This document shows, in pieces, positions 20,450 to 31,668 of a stretch of DNA of 64,000 nt. The notes beneath the pieces are model-generated. The model did no database searches and had not been told where the DNA came from. It saw nothing but the letters and a program-made list of their open reading frames with translations. Position 1 is the first letter of the stretch. Every line of letters begins with the position of its first letter. Source of the DNA: Gammaproteobacteria bacterium (GTDB lineage Bacteria > Pseudomonadota > Gammaproteobacteria > HK1). The position numbers and the translations under genes are program-made. The stretch is from NCBI GenBank assembly GCA_021773645.1, contig JAJFJU010000010.1, positions 124,001 to 188,000 of the forward strand, in the 5' to 3' direction.

Positions 20450-20616
20450 CATTGAAGGCCGTGCGGCAGCGTTGCCGCGCGCAGGCGGCGCTTGTTCAAG
20501 TTCGGGTATGGATGTAGTATCCGGCCGCAACTGATTGTTAAAAAAAGAGTTTATTCTTATTGAAGCTTGCCTGGGGAGGGGGAGTGGATACCTTTATAAA
20601 AGGCCGCGTGGGGACG

Positions 20617-22116
20617 ATGGCAAGCCGGTGTGTCGGGCGCATGATCTGTGCTTCCCTGCTGTTCTCATCCGCAGGCCTCAATGCCGCCATCATCAGTGGT
20701 TCCATCAGCAATTGGGTGGAGAGCGGCCCGCTCATGACCATTGGCGATGGTACGAATCATGTCAACCTCTATTGGTCCATCAATACCACCGACCGGGGCT
20801 GGTTCTACGGTACCAATTTCACTGGTGACAGCGATGTGGCTTTTGCTGCCGGGGTGTCGGATATCACCCAGATCACCAATGCCGGGGCACTTACTTATAC
20901 CAACATAAATTTACCTAACCCCCACTGTGACCCTGCTTGTGCCGCTCACGGGGTGCCTGGTGTGGGCGAATTTATCGTTTGGAAGAATACCGCCACCGGC
21001 CATTTCGGTGCCTTGCGTATAGATGATATTCATCCTGGTGCAACCGTTGACGAGCTCGACGGCACGTGGTGGTTTGAAACATTGGCCACAGGTGATTTTA
21101 CCGGTGCGACCATACCGGCGCCGGTTCCCGGCGTGGAGGTGGTTTCCGAGGTGCCCGCCGAGCGGGCGAGTAGCACCACCACGACCACCGAGATCCTGAA
21201 ACAGGGGTTGGCCCAAGTTGCAGTATCCATGAGCAACCGTATCGGTTCTGTACTATCTGGAAAGCGACAGCGGACCGGGTTCAAGCTACCGGTTTCCAAT
21301 AACCTGCTGCTGGAAACCGGCACAGGTTTGTCGGCGGGTGATGCTTCGGGAAACTTAGGAGTCTGGGCCAGCTATGGGCACATGGATATCCGCAATAATT
21401 TTGTCTCAACGGCTTTTGCCGCGGATATGGATAGTATCGTAACGGGCGTGGACTACCTCACCCCGGATAATCTGCTTATTGGTGTTGCCCTCTCCTACGA
21501 GAAACAGGATGTTGTCACATTCTTCAATGTGGGATCGCAGAAGGTGCACGGTTACACGGTGGCTCCCTATCTGGGCTATTTGCTCAATGACACCTTCAGT
21601 GTGGATCTGACGCTGGGCTACTCAAGTTCGGATATCAAACAAAGCCGTACCTTGGCGGGCGCAATGATTAACGGGAAACAGGATTCCCGTCGGCTCTTTG
21701 GTGCTGCAAATCTCAATGGCGTGACCGGCTTCGGTAATTGGCTCGTGACCGGAAATATTGGTTATCTTTATGCCAAGGATGAGTTGCGATCCTTTACGGA
21801 GAGCAATGGACTGCTAAACCCCAAATCCACCGTCAAGCTTGGTCAGGGGCGTATCGGTGGAGAACTCGCATACTCCTTCGGGGAATGGGAGCCCTATGCG
21901 AGTGTTGCTATGGTGCGGGATTTCGTGACTACTGAGGTGCAGGTAGGTGCCGGGGTTCCTGCTCCCTCCGATGACCGGGATGAAATGCAGTTTGGGTTTG
22001 GGCTGCGACTATTTAGCAAGCGGGGCATATCAGGCAATGCGGGCTGGGTAACGACCCGAGGGCGAGACAATGTGGATAGTGATGTCTACTCGGTAACCCT
22101 CAGAGTTGATTTCTAG
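20617..22116 (+). CDS. Outer-membrane autotransporter-type beta-barrel protein
   Basis: About 499 residues. A signal peptide (MICASLLFSSAGLNA) is followed by a passenger-like region of about 150 residues, then a threonine-rich patch (SSTTTTTEIL), then a C-terminal barrel domain of about 280 residues with the autotransporter pattern (LGVWASYGHMDI, SIVTGVDYLTPDNLLIGVALSYE, GYTVAPYLGYLLN). The protein ends in aromatic F (VTLRVDF), the usual outer-membrane barrel signal. The passenger is short with a few cysteines (HCDPACAAHG). ATG 20617 is chosen; a TTG at 20560 would extend it with an atypical N-terminus. The stop overlaps the convergent Lon gene by 17 bases. Confidence 0.82.
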   Translation: MASRCVGRMICASLLFSSAGLNAAIISGSISNWVESGPLMTIGDGTNHVNLYWSINTTDRGWFYGTNFTGDSDVAFAAGVSDITQITNAGALTYTNINLPNPHCDPACAAHGVPGVGEFIVWKNTATGHFGALRIDDIHPGATVDELDGTWWFETLATGDFTGATIPAPVPGVEVVSEVPAERASSTTTTTEILKQGLAQVAVSMSNRIGSVLSGKRQRTGFKLPVSNNLLLETGTGLSAGDASGNLGVWASYGHMDIRNNFVSTAFAADMDSIVTGVDYLTPDNLLIGVALSYEKQDVVTFFNVGSQKVHGYTVAPYLGYLLNDTFSVDLTLGYSSSDIKQSRTLAGAMINGKQDSRRLFGAANLNGVTGFGNWLVTGNIGYLYAKDELRSFTESNGLLNPKSTVKLGQGRIGGELAYSFGEWEPYASVAMVRDFVTTEVQVGAGVPAPSDDRDEMQFGFGLRLFSKRGISGNAGWVTTRGRDNVDSDVYSVTLRVDF

Positions 22117-24698: not shown

Positions 24699-25955
24699 AT
24701 GATTCAGCTAAGACAGCAGCAAGGCCCCATTCAGCACGAAGTACATTTTTGCTACAACTTGGCAGGTTATGGTGCGGACCGAAGTATGTTGACCTTGTTG
24801 CAGGGGTTGGCAAAACACGAGCCGGAAGTTCGGCGCACGCTGTTATTGGTGAAACCTCCGGGAGCCATGAGAGCCGAATTACCGGCCGAAATTGGGCTCG
24901 GAATGCTGGATCACGAACCCGCCCCGGATGAGGAGCGAACGGGATGGGTCTGGCGGCTGTTGGCTCGAGGCCTGCCGTTTCGCCTTTCCCACTGGTTGTG
25001 GATGGCGGGTTGGCAGTTGCGTTTGCACTATCGCGTGCTGAAACAAATGCCGCAGCGACTGCACGAACTCCGTCCTGATTTGGTGGTAAGCCATACCTAT
25101 GGCTCCGGTGCCACTGCCCTGGTGTGTCGGGCAATGGGAATTCCCTGTGTGGTGTACATTCATGGATGGATTCGGCGCCATACCTACGGTCCTTATCGAT
25201 GGCTGACGGTGCGCGGTATTCGGTGCGCGAGCCACGTGATCGCTATTTCCCGTTTACATGCTGATGATCTGATTGGAAATCAGCGTATCCCGTCGGAGCG
25301 GGTATCCGTTCAATACAATAGCCTGGATCTTGAAGATATAAAGGTGCGGCTGGAGGGGCGGGACACCGTGGATTGGCCACCAGATTCTACTGTGCCGCTG
25401 GTGCTCAATCTGGCTCGCTACTATCCTGAAAAAGGGCTGGATGTTTTGCTTGATGCCTTTGCCCTGTTGCTCCGGCAGCGCCCCGCCTACTTGCTGTTAT
25501 GCGGCGACGGGCCGGAGTTGCCTCGCCTTCGCGCTCAGGCCGTTCGCCTCGGGATTAGCCAGCAAGTAAAGTTTCTGGATTGGGTGGCGGATCCATTTCC
25601 ACTTTTGAAGCGCGCCAGCCTGTATGTGCTTGCCTCCCGTTGGGAGGTGCTTTCACGCTCGCTACTGGAGGCCCAGGCCGCGGGACTTGCCGTGGTTAGC
25701 ACCGACCATCCACTCAGCGCCCGCGAGGCAGTTAGTGAGCACTCGGCCATCTTGGTGCCTGTAGATGATGCGGTGGCCCTGGCAGAGGCAATGTTCAAGG
25801 TTCTGGATGACCCGGAGCTTGCGGTACGCATGGGTGTTGCCGGGCAAAAATACGCTGTGCGTTTTTCACAGCAACGTCAGATCGCTGCCTATTTCGCACT
25901 ACGCCAACAGCTGCTAGGTGAAGCTGGCAAGACAGCCCCCCAGATGCTGGACTAA
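24699..25955 (+). CDS. Glycosyltransferase family 4
   Basis: A 418-residue GT-B glycosyltransferase. The N-terminal acceptor domain starts EVHFCYNLAGYGADRSM. The C-terminal domain has LNLARYYPEKGLDVLLDAFALL, LLCGDGPELPRLRAQA, and an EX7E motif in WEVLSRSLLEAQAAG, all hallmarks of GT4 retaining enzymes. Donor and acceptor are unknown. The region before the ATG holds the near-palindrome GTTACCAGTAAC (24685-24696) in place of a clear ribosome binding site. First gene of a possible three-gene unit with the diiron oxygenase and GNAT genes. Confidence 0.9.
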   Translation: MIQLRQQQGPIQHEVHFCYNLAGYGADRSMLTLLQGLAKHEPEVRRTLLLVKPPGAMRAELPAEIGLGMLDHEPAPDEERTGWVWRLLARGLPFRLSHWLWMAGWQLRLHYRVLKQMPQRLHELRPDLVVSHTYGSGATALVCRAMGIPCVVYIHGWIRRHTYGPYRWLTVRGIRCASHVIAISRLHADDLIGNQRIPSERVSVQYNSLDLEDIKVRLEGRDTVDWPPDSTVPLVLNLARYYPEKGLDVLLDAFALLLRQRPAYLLLCGDGPELPRLRAQAVRLGISQQVKFLDWVADPFPLLKRASLYVLASRWEVLSRSLLEAQAAGLAVVSTDHPLSAREAVSEHSAILVPVDDAVALAEAMFKVLDDPELAVRMGVAGQKYAVRFSQQRQIAAYFALRQQLLGEAGKTAPQMLD

Positions 25956-25985
25956 CATGCAGCTGTAAGCCTTCGGAGATGTGAG

Positions 25986-26942
25986 ATGTCAGGTGGTAGG
26001 GGTGTTCCTTCAAGTTTATTAAACCGTATTGATATTGAGGTAGCTCGTCTCAAGGACACGCGGTTGAAGCCGGCGGTTATTGCTGATGGTGAGCACCCGG
26101 ATCCCGCTATCCCCTGGATTCCTGAAACCCTCGTTCCGCTATGGGGAACGGCCGGCTACAAGCAGCTTAGTGATGAGCAGCGCCTGCGTTATAACCACTA
26201 CTACGCCTTACAGATGCTTGAGCAGTTCATCTGGATTGAGAATGCACTCGCGCTGGGCCCGCTGCGGATGTTGCTCGCGGGCACTCGGAAACCGGGGCTC
26301 GTTCGTATTATCCAGTCCTTTATTGCGGACGAGGTAGACCATAGTGCGGCGCTTTGGGAACTGGCCAACAGGGCGCGGCCGGACCTCTATTGCGGCCAGC
26401 ACCACCTTCTATTCCAGCCTCCGGCCAGAGTTCGCTTTCTGGCCTTTTTGATGGGCCGATTTCCCTCATTGTTATCTGGCTGGACGCTGTTTCTCAATGT
26501 TCTTGAAGAACATACGTTGGTGCTACACCGTGAGTACAAGCAGGCTGGAAATACGGTGGATTCGCTGTTTGCCCGGATCCATTTTCTGCATGCTCAGGAC
26601 GAGGCACGTCACTGCAGTATGGATTCTTTACTTGGGGCCTGGCTGATAGAGGGGCAGACTGGCTGGCAGCAGCAATTGAACGCCCGGGCTTTGGAAGGCT
26701 TGATGGCCGTTTATTACGACACGGATTGGGGATGGAAGCAGTCTCTGGAGCAATTGGTGAAAGACTTTCCAGAACTGCGTGACGATTTGTCGGATTTGCT
26801 CCGGGATGCCTCTTCAAGTCGTGGTCGGGGATATCTTGAACACCTCTTTGACTCAAAGACTGTTCCTATAACCACGCGTAATCGCAATCGACATACCATG
26901 CTGGATCAGGCTGTGACCCGCGTGTTGCGTCGAGCGTCCTAG
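25986..26942 (+). CDS. AurF-like diiron N-oxygenase / ferritin-like oxygenase
   Basis: A 318-residue all-helical protein with the diiron ligand pattern of AurF (p-aminobenzoate N-oxygenase). Visible ligands: E in QFIWIENALA, ExxH in IADEVDHSAALW, E in NVLEEHTLVLH, and the HxxxExxH set in HFLHAQDEARHCSM. The spacing of the last three (H, +4 E, +7 H) equals that of AurF H223, E227 and H230 as I recall them. Known relatives oxidise aryl amines or other small molecules. GGAGATGTGAG precedes the ATG. It is flanked by a glycosyltransferase and a GNAT gene, so the product may be a modified small molecule or sugar; the substrate is not inferable. Confidence 0.78.
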   Translation: MSGGRGVPSSLLNRIDIEVARLKDTRLKPAVIADGEHPDPAIPWIPETLVPLWGTAGYKQLSDEQRLRYNHYYALQMLEQFIWIENALALGPLRMLLAGTRKPGLVRIIQSFIADEVDHSAALWELANRARPDLYCGQHHLLFQPPARVRFLAFLMGRFPSLLSGWTLFLNVLEEHTLVLHREYKQAGNTVDSLFARIHFLHAQDEARHCSMDSLLGAWLIEGQTGWQQQLNARALEGLMAVYYDTDWGWKQSLEQLVKDFPELRDDLSDLLRDASSSRGRGYLEHLFDSKTVPITTRNRNRHTMLDQAVTRVLRRAS

Positions 26943-26951
26943 AGACGGCCA

Positions 26952-27576
26952 GTGCACATGCTCCGACGCCTGCTCATCTATCGTAGCGATTTACGGGAAA
27001 TGAGTTGGTTTCGGCGCGGCCAGCCTGCGCCTATGCCAAGCAGTGATGAGCGGGTGGAAATGCGCTGGGTGGACGAGGCTGCGTGGTTGGATAACCCTGC
27101 CATATTGCCTACCGCGTCACCTGTTGTACGGCAGCGATATGTCGCGCATGGCCGTTGCCTGGTAGGCATAGACCGGATCTCTGGCAAGACCGTTTACCAC
27201 CTGTGGTTGAGCACTGGATCGGCTTATATCGACTGGATATTCCGAACACTCACTGCACCTGGGGACGGTGTGCTGATCTTTGATGTTTGGGTTGACCCTT
27301 CTCTGCGAGGTAGCGCTGTGCATCGATTGGGGACGGCCCGCCATAGAGGCTGGTGTGGAGGAACACGAATACCCCTCTTTTGCCACCCTGTACGCACGCA
27401 TGGGGCTTGGAATCTGCCTGCCTCTTTATGTGCTGGCGGGATTACGATTGGGCTCAAGATTCTCGTTTCATTGGCGAGGGTCGCCGCCTGCCCGCCTGCA
27501 GGAATTCGGGGTGCGGCTGAGAAGCCGATATCCGGAACGCTCGCCTGACAGCCATCCACTTCCCGTGAGCTTATGA
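26952..27576 (+). pseudogene. GNAT-like N-acetyltransferase, probably frameshifted
   Basis: The first 120 codons from GTG 26952 read as the N-terminal part of a GNAT protein, ending in GVLIFDVWVDPSLRGS, the usual acetyl-CoA binding region. After about 27330 that frame becomes meaningless and runs to 27548. The +1 frame from about 27333 to 27576 reads AIEAGVEEHEYPSFATLYARMGLG, the expected C-terminal half of a GNAT domain. Removing one G from the GGGG run at 27329-27332 joins the halves. Either the gene is broken or the run is a sequencing error. It follows the oxygenase gene after 9 bases. Confidence 0.65.
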
Positions 27577-29055
27577 CCGTGTGGGCGGATCGTTGTCGGG
27601 GGGCGGCACAAAATCTGAAGTGAAATACTCAAACTTCAAGGCACGTCCCCAAGGAATCTCCTCCATTTGCACAATGGCCAGCGGGTGGGTTGGTTCTTCG
27701 GTGGCCTCTTCCCAGAACTTGCGCACGTGGCGGTGAAAGGCGCTGCTCAGAGGGTGGCTGGCACGGATGCGCAACTCATAGGACTGGTTTCGGTACTGAT
27801 GCAGCTGGTACTGGCGGATCGGCGCCAGTAAATCCGCTGCGATAAGGCGGAGACTGAACGCGCGCTGAATTGCTATCAAGTAGGCCCAGCTGTCTTTGGG
27901 CTGCAGTGCAAGGCGCCGGTAGCGCCCATGGATGGCGGTGAAGGCGGGAAGGGTACGTCCACAGAGACAGGGGCCCACCGCAAGCTCAGCAAGATCTCCG
28001 GTATCGTAGCGGATGAGTGGCATGGCTGCATTTGCCAGTGGTGTGACGATGATGCGTCCAATTTCACCGGGTTCGCAGGGCTTATCGTCCGCGTTCAGCA
28101 CCTCTACCAGGCAGTTTTCCAAGTGGATATGAAAACGTCCGCCCTCCCGACATTGTGCCGCTACGTGTCCGACTTCGTTAAGCGAATAACTCTGGTATAC
28201 CGGTACCCCAAAGATGCTTTCGATGCGTTCCTGCATCTGGGGGGTGAGCTGTTGTGCAGAGGCGCGCAGGGCCCGCAGGCTGGCTGGCGGAGCGTGGTCC
28301 TGGTAAGCAAAGGCTAGTTGCTCCAGCAGGGTAGCTTGGGTGGTGAGATAGTCCGGGGCGAGTTCATCCAGCCATGCCACCTGTTTGTCGATGGAATTGG
28401 TATCAGCAAAGCCGACGCTGGGGCCGGTGTCAAAGTGATTCCCCACGTTGAACCAGCGTGGATAGTGATAGCTATGGTCCAGCGGATATTTTTGTCTCTC
28501 ATGGACGGTTCCTAATTCGTGCAGGCCGCGGGTCATGGCGAGGGTGCCGCTGGGGTCAAAGCGCTGCCAGCGTAATTCCCGCTGGGTCATGATGCCCACC
28601 ATCATGTTGCTGTGTTCGCTGTGCCAGACTTCGACCGGCTGGCCGGTGGAGCCGGATGTGGCGACCTTACGGTCAATGCGGTGACCATCTGGCAGCACCT
28701 CAGCGCGCAGTTGCTCGCTATTCCCCTGCAAGTCTTCACGCGTCAGGATGGGTAAGCGGGCCAGGTCCTCCACGCCCCCTATGTCTTTGCTATCAATGCC
28801 GAGTTTGTGGAATTGCGTGCGATACCAGGGCACATGTGTCGAGGCAAAGGCTATCAAGTCGCCCAGCACCTCTGCTTGCCATGCACACTGGTCGGCGGGA
28901 CTAAGGAATTCGTTACGAATCAGCTCCCCGGACCAGTCCATCTGAGACCAGTCTGCTCGGAGCTGCCAGCGGGATTGTGCTGTCTGCTCCGTCTCCATTG
29001 TTGCGGGTGTGCTCAGGGGAATGCTGTAACGGAATGGATGGGGAGCAGCAGCCAT
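27571..29055 (-). CDS. PaaK/CapK-family adenylate-forming enzyme
   Basis: A 494-residue member of the phenylacetate-CoA ligase / CapK family, which activates carboxylates with ATP. The phosphate-binding motif is TSGSTGQPVEVWHS near residue 135. VYQSYSLNEVGHVAAQC and PLIRYDTGDLAELAVGPCLCGRTLP match the later adenylation motifs. CapK-type members occur in capsule loci, which fits the glycosyltransferase nearby, but a CoA ligase role is also possible. ATG 28998 is an alternative start. The gene lies downstream of the FecR gene on the same strand with a gap of about 54 bases. Confidence 0.85.
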   Translation of the reverse strand: MAAAPHPFRYSIPLSTPATMETEQTAQSRWQLRADWSQMDWSGELIRNEFLSPADQCAWQAEVLGDLIAFASTHVPWYRTQFHKLGIDSKDIGGVEDLARLPILTREDLQGNSEQLRAEVLPDGHRIDRKVATSGSTGQPVEVWHSEHSNMMVGIMTQRELRWQRFDPSGTLAMTRGLHELGTVHERQKYPLDHSYHYPRWFNVGNHFDTGPSVGFADTNSIDKQVAWLDELAPDYLTTQATLLEQLAFAYQDHAPPASLRALRASAQQLTPQMQERIESIFGVPVYQSYSLNEVGHVAAQCREGGRFHIHLENCLVEVLNADDKPCEPGEIGRIIVTPLANAAMPLIRYDTGDLAELAVGPCLCGRTLPAFTAIHGRYRRLALQPKDSWAYLIAIQRAFSLRLIAADLLAPIRQYQLHQYRNQSYELRIRASHPLSSAFHRHVRKFWEEATEEPTHPLAIVQMEEIPWGRALKFEYFTSDFVPPPDNDPPTRS

Positions 29056-29109: not shown

Positions 29110-29874
29110 CTACACACACTCAAAGCAAACGGGAATTTCGGGTGGAATCACCTCGGGCGGAATGACCTCCCAGCCTTCCGAGGTAAATCCAGAGCTGTCC
29201 TCGGTAACGTTCTTGCGGGCGGGATAACCTTCCTGAATCTGAAATCGCCCTTCAGTTCGTACCAGAAAACTGCCACCCATATCGTTGCCGTTTTCGTCGA
29301 GGATGAAGTACTGGCCCGGCTCCAACAGGTACCAGGAGGAACCATCTATATCCACTAATACCGGCCCATCATTCTCGTCGCTATCGTTGATCGCTCGGAT
29401 GACCCAGTTACCGTTGGCATCTTGTTCTACTTCGGGGTGAGTGCCGCGGATGCCGATGGTGGCGACCGGTGTTCTGAGGCGATAGCCGCGTGGATTGTTA
29501 CGGCCAATGAGGCCGGTGATGCTGCGAAAACCACCCTTCAGGATGCTGAAGAAGCTTTTTCCCGCGGCCGCCTTTTTCTCCTCAAAAGCGTATTCATCGA
29601 TGCGAAAAACACTATTGGACTTGAGTGCAGTGTAGGAACCGTCACTAAAGCGCAGATGAGCGATGCCTCGCTTGGTTTTGATAGTGTCTCCGCTATCAAT
29701 ACTCGAACCGCGTTTGAGGTCTCGGGTCTGACCGTCTTTTGTGGTGGCCTGAACCTTGCCAAAGGCAAAATCCACCCGTCCTGCAGCCGCATTGGCGCTA
29801 AGTGGCAGGGCGGCGGCGATGGCGGTGGCGAGCAGCGTTTGTGTGGCTCGACCTATGCGGCTCTTTGCGGACAT
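29110..29874 (-). CDS. Exported FecR-domain protein
   Basis: A 254-residue protein with a signal peptide (TQTLLATAIAAALPLSANA) and a FecR domain: DLKRGSSIDSGDTIKTKRG, AHLRFSDGSYTALKSNSVF and LRTPVATIGIRGT. This type is found in free-standing periplasmic proteins, not only in FecI/FecR regulators, and here there is no sigma factor gene near. The tail has two cysteines in IPVCFECV. It lies 12 bases after the outer-membrane TPR/barrel gene, so the two are likely partners. Confidence 0.85.
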   Translation of the reverse strand: MSAKSRIGRATQTLLATAIAAALPLSANAAAGRVDFAFGKVQATTKDGQTRDLKRGSSIDSGDTIKTKRGIAHLRFSDGSYTALKSNSVFRIDEYAFEEKKAAAGKSFFSILKGGFRSITGLIGRNNPRGYRLRTPVATIGIRGTHPEVEQDANGNWVIRAINDSDENDGPVLVDIDGSSWYLLEPGQYFILDENGNDMGGSFLVRTEGRFQIQEGYPARKNVTEDSSGFTSEGWEVIPPEVIPPEIPVCFECV

Positions 29875-29886
29875 CGGCTTAATCCC

Positions 29887-31206
29887 CTAATCAAAATTTC
29901 GGCGCAAGGTGACTGTATAGATGTATCTGTCAAAGTCAGTCACTGGAATATTGGAATTATTCCGGATATAGCGGAATTCGGGAATGACGTGCCACTTTTT
30001 CCACGGCCTGTAGTCGAGCCCCAGGGCCAGTTTAATGAAGGAATCATCCCGTTTTCTGAGGAAACTTGGATCTGCACCCTCGTAGTCCCGTTCCTCCAGA
30101 GAACCGGATACATAGGCCGTCAGATGGGGAACGAGCTCCAGATTACCGCCAGCGCGCAGGCCCCAGAAGTTGTGTTCGAGATAGGCGGCTCCGGTGGCAT
30201 CCTTCGATTCCTTGCCGCCGTAGGCACCGGCATAGACAGAAGCGGGGCGTTCACTGTCGAGAGAGGTTACATAGGTAGCCCCAAGGGTAACCCGGTCCCC
30301 GTCACGCAACTGCTGACCTGTCGGACGGTAGTCCAGGTTGGCGTAGCGCAGATACAGGCCTGCCGTGACCCCGGGTGCTACTACATGTTGCCAGCGACCG
30401 AGTACGCCCAGACTGTTGCGCAGGGTCGCATTATCGAAGCGGTAGTGATTGCCCCCGATCTCACCGGAGTAGATGTTGTCACCATCGCGGTATTGCAGGC
30501 CGATGGCGGCATTGAGGGAGCCGGTGTCAAAGTCATTCTCGGTGCTGTTCAAGCGTTGAAAGGCGCTACCACGGGCGAGCAAGTGCAGGTCATCGCCGAG
30601 AGGGCGGCGGAGTAAAATCCGGCCTGAAAGGCTGGAAAACACATCGTCTTCCTCGCCGATGCTAAGGAGGCGAATAGCACCACCCTGAGCGGGAATAGCC
30701 TGATTACGTTCGCCGGTGGCGGAAGTTACGTTACTGTCGTAACCCAGAGTGAGCGCCACGTGACCACGAATATCATTCTGGGCCCAACTAAGGCGAGTCA
30801 GCTGCCTCTGTGCCTCATTTCGGGTGGCTGCAGGTGCTTTACTTGCGGCGACTTGGCTGAGCAATTCCCGGGCCTGATCGAGCTTGCGCATGGCGATATA
30901 AGCACGGGCGGTAGCGACCTTCGCACCCGCATGATCGGGATCGATGATAAGGACTCGCTCTAGGGCAAAGGAGGCGATGCCCGGTTGTCCGGCATCCAGT
31001 GCCGCGAGGCCAAGTAAATAATCGTAGGCAACTTCCCCGGCACGGTCGGACTGAAGTGGCAGCAGCAGCTCATAGGCGCCCTGGGCATTACCACTATCAA
31101 GCAGACTCTGGGCCTGGGCGAGCGCATCGCCTTTCGCCTGGAGGTTACTTGCGGCGGCGAGCAGTGCCACCAAAAACAATATTTTCCATTGTCGAACAAC
31201 GGTCAT
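29887..31206 (-). CDS. Outer-membrane protein with TPR N-terminus and beta-barrel (SLAM-like / DUF560)
   Basis: About 439 residues. Signal peptide (ILFLVALLAAASNLQA), then TPR repeats (AQAQSLLDSGNAQGAYELL, ALERVLIIDPDHAGAKVATARAYI), then a barrel of about 290 residues with alternating strands, ending KWHVIPEFRYIRN and VTLRRNF. This order matches the surface lipoprotein assembly modifier / DUF560 type. A GGGAGAGG site lies 4 and 7 bases before two adjacent ATGs (31209 and 31206). The first gene of the minus-strand group with FecR and the PaaK-like enzyme. Substrate unknown. Confidence 0.78.
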   Translation of the reverse strand: MTVVRQWKILFLVALLAAASNLQAKGDALAQAQSLLDSGNAQGAYELLLPLQSDRAGEVAYDYLLGLAALDAGQPGIASFALERVLIIDPDHAGAKVATARAYIAMRKLDQARELLSQVAASKAPAATRNEAQRQLTRLSWAQNDIRGHVALTLGYDSNVTSATGERNQAIPAQGGAIRLLSIGEEDDVFSSLSGRILLRRPLGDDLHLLARGSAFQRLNSTENDFDTGSLNAAIGLQYRDGDNIYSGEIGGNHYRFDNATLRNSLGVLGRWQHVVAPGVTAGLYLRYANLDYRPTGQQLRDGDRVTLGATYVTSLDSERPASVYAGAYGGKESKDATGAAYLEHNFWGLRAGGNLELVPHLTAYVSGSLEERDYEGADPSFLRKRDDSFIKLALGLDYRPWKKWHVIPEFRYIRNNSNIPVTDFDRYIYTVTLRRNFD

Positions 31207-31591
31207 CATCAAGCCTCTCCCGATGGCGTGGTCAGTCTATTCATGAATAACCGCTTCCCATGATACCGATTCAGCTGAGACGGAATATAACTAACGATCC
31301 GCAACTCCCTGAAAGATAACCGATTCTATGCCTGTTGTCAGGGTATTTCAAAGCGGGGTTGGCATCCATGCTCATTAAAAATCAATATCCACCTCGATTC
31401 GGTGGGTTATAAGTATGACTCCAAGGGGGATATTAGACAGATTGTGGGACTGAAGTCGTAGTCAAGGTGAGGGGATTTGACTGTTTCGCTGGGCGCGCAC
31501 CATGGAAGGCCTGCATCCACCTCCTACCTTAAATGGTGTAGGAGGCATGACGTTAACAAGGAGATTTAAGAGGTTGCGGGAATAAATAAAT
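31207..31591. other. Intergenic region between outer-membrane gene and tRNA-Pro
   Basis: 385 bases without an ORF. Hairpins seen: CCACC/GGTGG at 31389-31405, and a perfect 8-bp stem at 31520-31545. A 15-base segment near 31465 resembles the tRNA-Pro T-arm. No clear promoter for the minus-strand operon could be fixed. Confidence 0.5.
31520..31545. other. Perfect 8-bp hairpin
   Basis: CCTCCTAC (31520-31527) and GTAGGAGG (31538-31545) form a perfect stem around a 10-nt loop. No T run follows on either strand, so a simple intrinsic terminator is not supported. It lies 46 bases past the tRNA-Pro 3' end. Confidence 0.4.
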
Positions 31592-31668
31592 TGGTCGGGG
31601 TGAGAGGATTTGAACCTCCGACCCCTGCCTCCCGAAGGCAGTGCTCTACCAAGCTGAGCTACACCCCG
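31592..31668 (-). tRNA. tRNA-Pro (anticodon CGG)
   Basis: A 77-nt tRNA read on the minus strand: acceptor CGGGGTG pairs with CACCCCG, the D-arm is AGCTCAGCTTGGTAGAGC, the anticodon stem-loop is CTGCC-TTCGGGA-GGCAG giving anticodon CGG, and the T-arm contains GGTTCAAATCC. CCA is encoded. It lies 64 bases downstream of ispB on the same strand. Confidence 0.96.

Follow-up and report, generated by a model that had tools for sequence, protein, structure and literature searches.

The window analyzed here is a 64,000-nucleotide stretch of a gammaproteobacterial genome (GenBank assembly GCA_021773645.1; contig JAJFJU010000010.1, here C28, positions 124,001 to 188,000); the genome comprises 2.49 Mb in 28 contigs. 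An original prediction, made from the sequence alone, proposed that a GT4 glycosyltransferase, an AurF-like diiron oxygenase and a GNAT gene in tandem form, with a neighboring PaaK/CapK adenylating enzyme, a small biosynthetic or surface-modification cluster. The features of the locus are as follows.

24699..25955, plus strand: GT4-family glycosyltransferase, 418 aa (Glycos_transf_1 domain, EX7E motif)
25986..26942, plus strand: AurF-type diiron oxygenase, 318 aa (PF11583, ligand set)
26952..27576, plus strand: GNAT-like acyltransferase gene, frameshifted (intact 219-aa orthologues in loci L004 and L005)
27571..29055, minus strand: PaaK/CapK-type adenylate-forming enzyme, 494 aa (Pfam AMP-binding)
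29110..29874, minus strand: FecR-domain protein with an apparent signal peptide (PF04773)
29887..31212, minus strand: TPR and outer-membrane barrel protein, SlipAM/DUF560-like (TPR_19 and SlipAM matches)
31592..31668, minus strand: tRNA-Pro(CGG), by ARAGORN; marks where the genus-specific segment meets the family-conserved backbone

The four open reading frames that had been proposed, at 24699-25955, 25986-26942 and 26952-27548 on the plus strand and at 27571-29055 on the minus strand, are real, and the tandem gaps of 30 and 9 bases were confirmed for the plus-strand run of GT4, AurF and GNAT-like genes. The PaaK gene does lie beside this run on the other strand, but it is not the lone neighbor that had been described: it closes a run on the minus strand, SlipAM-FecR-PaaK, which has internal gaps of 12 and 54 bases and converges with the GT4 run. 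A promoter-like site is found 5' of SlipAM (31351-31323), such sites being no more common here than in shuffled sequence. Both runs are carried by a genus-specific segment bounded by a LonC-type protease gene and the tRNA-Pro. In the two available congeners, G016 and G015, represented by the gammaproteobacterial MAG contigs JAJFJT010000023.1 (OFTM50) and JAJFJV010000017.1 (OFTM98), respectively, the GNAT-like and PaaK genes are arranged tail to tail and share their final six bases.

The chromosomal backbone of the region in relatives is ProB-Obg-RplU-IspB, of which Obg, RplU and IspB are common to six sampled relatives from other genera, and tRNA-Pro(CGG) was present in all five of the other-genus relatives scanned for tRNAs. 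Within the 5-17 kb beyond IspB in the six other-genus relatives, none of the kinase, LonC, GT4, AurF, GNAT-like, PaaK, FecR and SlipAM genes was found. The segment is thus lineage-specific, and it is not recognizable as a recent insertion, since its G+C content equals the window mean and a search for a duplicated tRNA end was negative; a recent integrase-mediated insertion at tRNA-Pro is unsupported for the same reasons. Nearby genes differ within the genus. Between the kinase and LonC genes, an autotransporter-domain protein is encoded in the window (20560-22116) and in L005, and a LamG-like protein with a PEP-CTERM-like tail in L004 (4697-5539). An 883-aa NMT1/GGDEF-like sensor gene lies between SlipAM and tRNA-Pro in L004 (15079-17730), in this congener only.

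The known diiron ligands of AurF are E101, E136, H139, E196, H223, E227 and H230. The window oxygenase, for which an AurF-like identity had been predicted, scored 57.3 bits against Pfam AurF PF11583 (gathering cut-off, 29.6) and contains the full ligand pattern, with the seven ligands at E85, E116, H119, E174/E175, H202, E206 and H209. In an alignment of 13 homologues that takes in ten distant AurF-family proteins, the columns of E85, E116, H119, E174, H202, E206 and H209 are invariant; E175, an alternative fourth ligand beside the invariant E174, is present in most of the 13. The ExxH and HxxxExxH spacings are those given for DnfA, the diiron ligand set of which is the same as in AurF and CmlI (PMC9478400). 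The second-sphere aspartates D115 and D205, which are invariant in the genus, occupy the positions of AurF D135 and D226, the criteria for which are given in PMC12101540; the same source reports QExxH, with glutamine at the first second-sphere position, for CylC homologues. A CylC-type halogenase function is disfavored, as the oxygenase has DExxH in all three genus members and not QExxH. An AlphaFold model of the oxygenase is all-helical and too poor to interpret (mean pLDDT 40.9), and no solved AurF or CmlI structure was matched by sequence profile. Judged from its sequence, the protein is a catalytically plausible AurF-type enzyme.

The third gene of the tandem run had been described as an intact GNAT gene, which does not hold for the window genome. 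Nucleotide alignment with the two congeners revealed a 35-bp deletion near position 27330, beside a putative acyl-CoA-binding loop, so that the open reading frame at 26952-27548 corresponds to a frameshifted gene. The native frame runs to approximately position 27325, beyond which the coding sequence is read one frame over until the stop at 27574-27576, the shift falling after approximately residue 126 of the 219-aa protein; likewise, the 219-aa profile splits on the window genome, its residues 1-129 and 131-218 matching in different frames. The protein is intact, with 219 residues, in both congeners. In L004, the segment missing from the window genome is flanked by two copies of CGATTGGGG, making slippage a plausible cause of the deletion; the genome being a draft, the deletion may also be an assembly error. 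The family assignment likewise changes in status, because neither the window open reading frame nor its intact counterparts in the congeners matched any Pfam acetyltransferase model. The intact protein does carry an RGGA...G loop and PSFATLYARMGL, which resemble GNAT motifs, and the strand and helix order of its AlphaFold model is compatible with a GNAT topology at low confidence (pLDDT 44.6). The designation GNAT is therefore a reading from motifs.

The assignments of the two remaining enzymes were upheld. The glycosyltransferase matched Pfam Glycos_transf_1 (3.7e-31, 108 bits), contains the EX7E motif (E316...E324), and is 84% identical to its congener orthologues (dN/dS 0.13-0.22); its match to NCBIfam TIGR03088, a glycosyltransferase of the XrtA system, is weak, scoring 92.9 bits where the cut-off is 409. 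The adenylate-forming enzyme matched Pfam AMP-binding, with PaaK-type CoA ligases as the best family matches, and carries a P-loop TSGSTGQP and a YDTGDL motif. A profile search of PDB returned PaaK structures (4r1l at 1.7e-27), and the match to TIGR02155, phenylacetate-CoA ligase, reached 73.7 bits against a cut-off of 646; all PaaK-family NCBIfam matches fell well below every named cut-off. Identity to the congeners is 81-83% for PaaK and 94-95% for the FecR-domain protein.

Co-occurrence in other genomes, without which the original prediction would take the grouping as chance, was borne out within the genus and failed outside it. The order GT4, AurF, GNAT-like, PaaK is kept in all three genus genomes, with 75-85% protein identity. 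The dN/dS values, which are 0.12-0.22 for these four genes and 0.05-0.09 for FecR and SlipAM, indicate purifying selection on all six. Orthologues of AurF were found in three of the 17 genomes of the order, all of them in the genus; neither AurF nor GNAT-like orthologues were found in the 366 other genomes of the class (in a 369-genome sample) or elsewhere in the family. The 369 class genomes contain 13 further AurF family members, all distant, and in the ten neighborhoods of such distant relatives that were read, no homologues of GT4, GNAT-like, PaaK or FecR genes were found beside them. An AurF alignment scan of 84,980 species genomes recovered the two congeners only, using strict patterns that would miss distant relatives. 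A phylum-level sample of 398 genomes, in which the genomes listed are all of the same class, gave no AurF match beyond the window genome at E 1e-10. Neither AurF nor the intact GNAT-like protein gave any match in searches of plasmids, and no matching system was found in the literature on AurF together with polysaccharide genes.

Distant AurF relatives also occur in L023, L024 and L025, loci from other gammaproteobacterial families. In L023 and L025, the relative is followed by a membrane-like protein without a Pfam match and by a fatty-acid desaturase. L023 also encodes a GH3 amido-synthetase, an FG-GAP/RnfD-like protein and a 255-aa protein common to L025 (44% identity); L024 resembles L023 by sequence, and L025 has B12 radical SAM genes instead.

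Relatives of PaaK and SlipAM are more widespread, occurring in 51 and 42 other genomes of the class, respectively. The best PaaK relatives (in G100 and G270) adjoin sulfotransferase and methyltransferase genes, the one in G100 also being near an asparagine-synthase gene; the neighbors of PaaK relatives outside the genus are of this kind or are FecR/SlipAM, and not AurF. A PaaK homologue in G244 (L069, 17618-19012) is broken by a TAG stop. The SlipAM search returned seven loci from outside the genus, six of which have an adjoining FecR homologue. The order SlipAM-FecR-PaaK recurs, without AurF, in G135, a genome from another family and the only one outside the genus, among genomes with both matches, in which PaaK and SlipAM are adjacent. 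There (L068 on contig C52, 2877-10113), the three genes are followed by an open reading frame that reads as methyltransferase-like and by a GT41-family TPR glycosyltransferase, possibly forming a surface-protein glycosylation locus. Given the lack of co-occurrence outside the genus and the PaaK relatives found elsewhere without AurF, the GT4-AurF-GNAT run is a unit specific to this lineage, linked to PaaK by adjacency only. Best supported is this conserved, genus-restricted operon with its catalytically plausible AurF-type enzyme.

On the sequence evidence, our preferred reading, held at a probability of roughly 0.4, is that the segment encodes a lineage-specific gene set for tailoring a surface glycan or a glycosylated small molecule. 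Going by enzyme family, the GT4 protein would glycosylate an acceptor, either lipid-linked or free, and the diiron enzyme could oxidize an amino group, on the sugar or its substituent, to a hydroxylamine, nitroso or nitro group. PaaK would activate a carboxylic acid, giving acyl-AMP or acyl-CoA; the GNAT-like enzyme would transfer an acyl group, and the SlipAM/FecR pair would act at the cell surface. The 35-bp deletion has probably abolished the acyl-transfer step in the window genome, unless it is an assembly error. Such a tailoring set is supported by the complete AurF ligands and DExxH, by dN/dS values of 0.12-0.22, and by the gene order shared by three of three genus genomes, the last being weak evidence of a shared pathway because synteny in the genus covers most of the region, housekeeping genes included. 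The sulfotransferase and methyltransferase genes beside the best PaaK relatives, the SlipAM-FecR-PaaK order in G135 and the absence of the segment by IspB/tRNA-Pro in six other-genus relatives point the same way, as do an exosortase and a priming glycosyltransferase encoded 4 kb apart on another contig of the window genome, which suggest a surface-polysaccharide locus elsewhere in the genome. Against it stand the confinement of the co-occurrence to the genus, the location of PaaK in a separate run on the opposite strand, and the motif-based identity of the GNAT-like protein, with no Pfam match and a low-confidence model. No genes for sugar-nucleotide synthesis, a flippase or a polymerase were identified in the set.

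A single pathway that includes PaaK is plausible. A serious competitor, itself tentative, is that the locus consists of two unrelated convergent units, a GT4-AurF-GNAT operon and a SlipAM-FecR-PaaK surface unit, with no four-enzyme pathway. The opposite strands of the runs are consistent with this, as are the many genomes with SlipAM-FecR pairs but no AurF, the AurF-free SlipAM-FecR-PaaK run of G135, and the much slower evolution of FecR and SlipAM (dN/dS 0.05-0.09) than of PaaK and the GT4 operon (0.12-0.22). However, all of the genes have been kept together in three species despite changes in nearby genes (autotransporter versus PEP-CTERM protein; the sensor insertion of L004), and the site lacks every one of them in the sampled relatives. 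The ligand set and DExxH would also fit an N-oxygenase in a small natural-product pathway, leading to a glycosylated nitro, azoxy or N-hydroxy compound with PaaK loading the starter acid; the characterized relatives of AurF produce nitro, nitroso or azoxy compounds or oxidize hydroxylamine (PMC9478400; PMC6783550, PMC10724926). We consider such a pathway unlikely, as the interval from LonC to tRNA-Pro holds only the GT4, AurF, GNAT-like, PaaK, FecR and SlipAM genes, and the set lacks genes for a carrier protein, an NRPS, a PKS, an exporter or a regulator. Less probable still is a role of the oxygenase in nitrogen metabolism, with hydroxylamine as its substrate as for DnfA and the neighbors incidental: the seven diiron ligands of DnfA are those of AurF (PMC9478400), but no DnfB-like ferredoxin-reductase partner adjoins the window oxygenase, and its tandem partners are a GT4 enzyme and a GNAT-like protein.

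Within the tailoring reading, a more specific version, which we regard as improbable, is a genus-specific surface-glycan pathway in which the AurF-type enzyme would N-oxidize an amino sugar or its acyl substituent and the acyl donor would be the PaaK-activated acid. If the AurF-type enzyme does act on a glycan, the range of diiron N-oxygenases, known from pathways to nitro and azoxy natural products, would extend to cell-surface sugars. If not, familiar enzymes make up a tailoring set specific to the lineage, and the main gain is the corrected gene model and the separation of the two runs.

All of the parts belong to known enzyme families, and several can be compared with known systems. Like the AurF/CmlI/AzoC N-oxygenases (PF11583), the window oxygenase has an above-cut-off Pfam match, a seven-ligand set of three histidines and four carboxylates, and aspartates at the AurF D135 and D226 positions; unlike them, it is encoded beside GT4 and GNAT-like genes and not in a PKS or NRPS cluster. 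With the CylC-type dimetal halogenases it shares a distant AurF resemblance and an HxxDExxH motif, but it differs in having DExxH in place of the QExxH of CylC homologues (PMC12101540). The adenylate-forming enzyme resembles the PaaK/CapK enzymes of polysaccharide-like loci in its family, its AMP-binding motifs and the sulfotransferase and methyltransferase genes beside its relatives, whereas its scores lie far under the NCBIfam cut-offs for phenylacetate-CoA ligase and other named relatives. Finally, as with SlipAM/DUF560 proteins (type XI secretion) in other gammaproteobacteria, the TPR and barrel gene lies directly upstream of FecR, but here PaaK comes next, an order shared with only one other sampled genome, G135.
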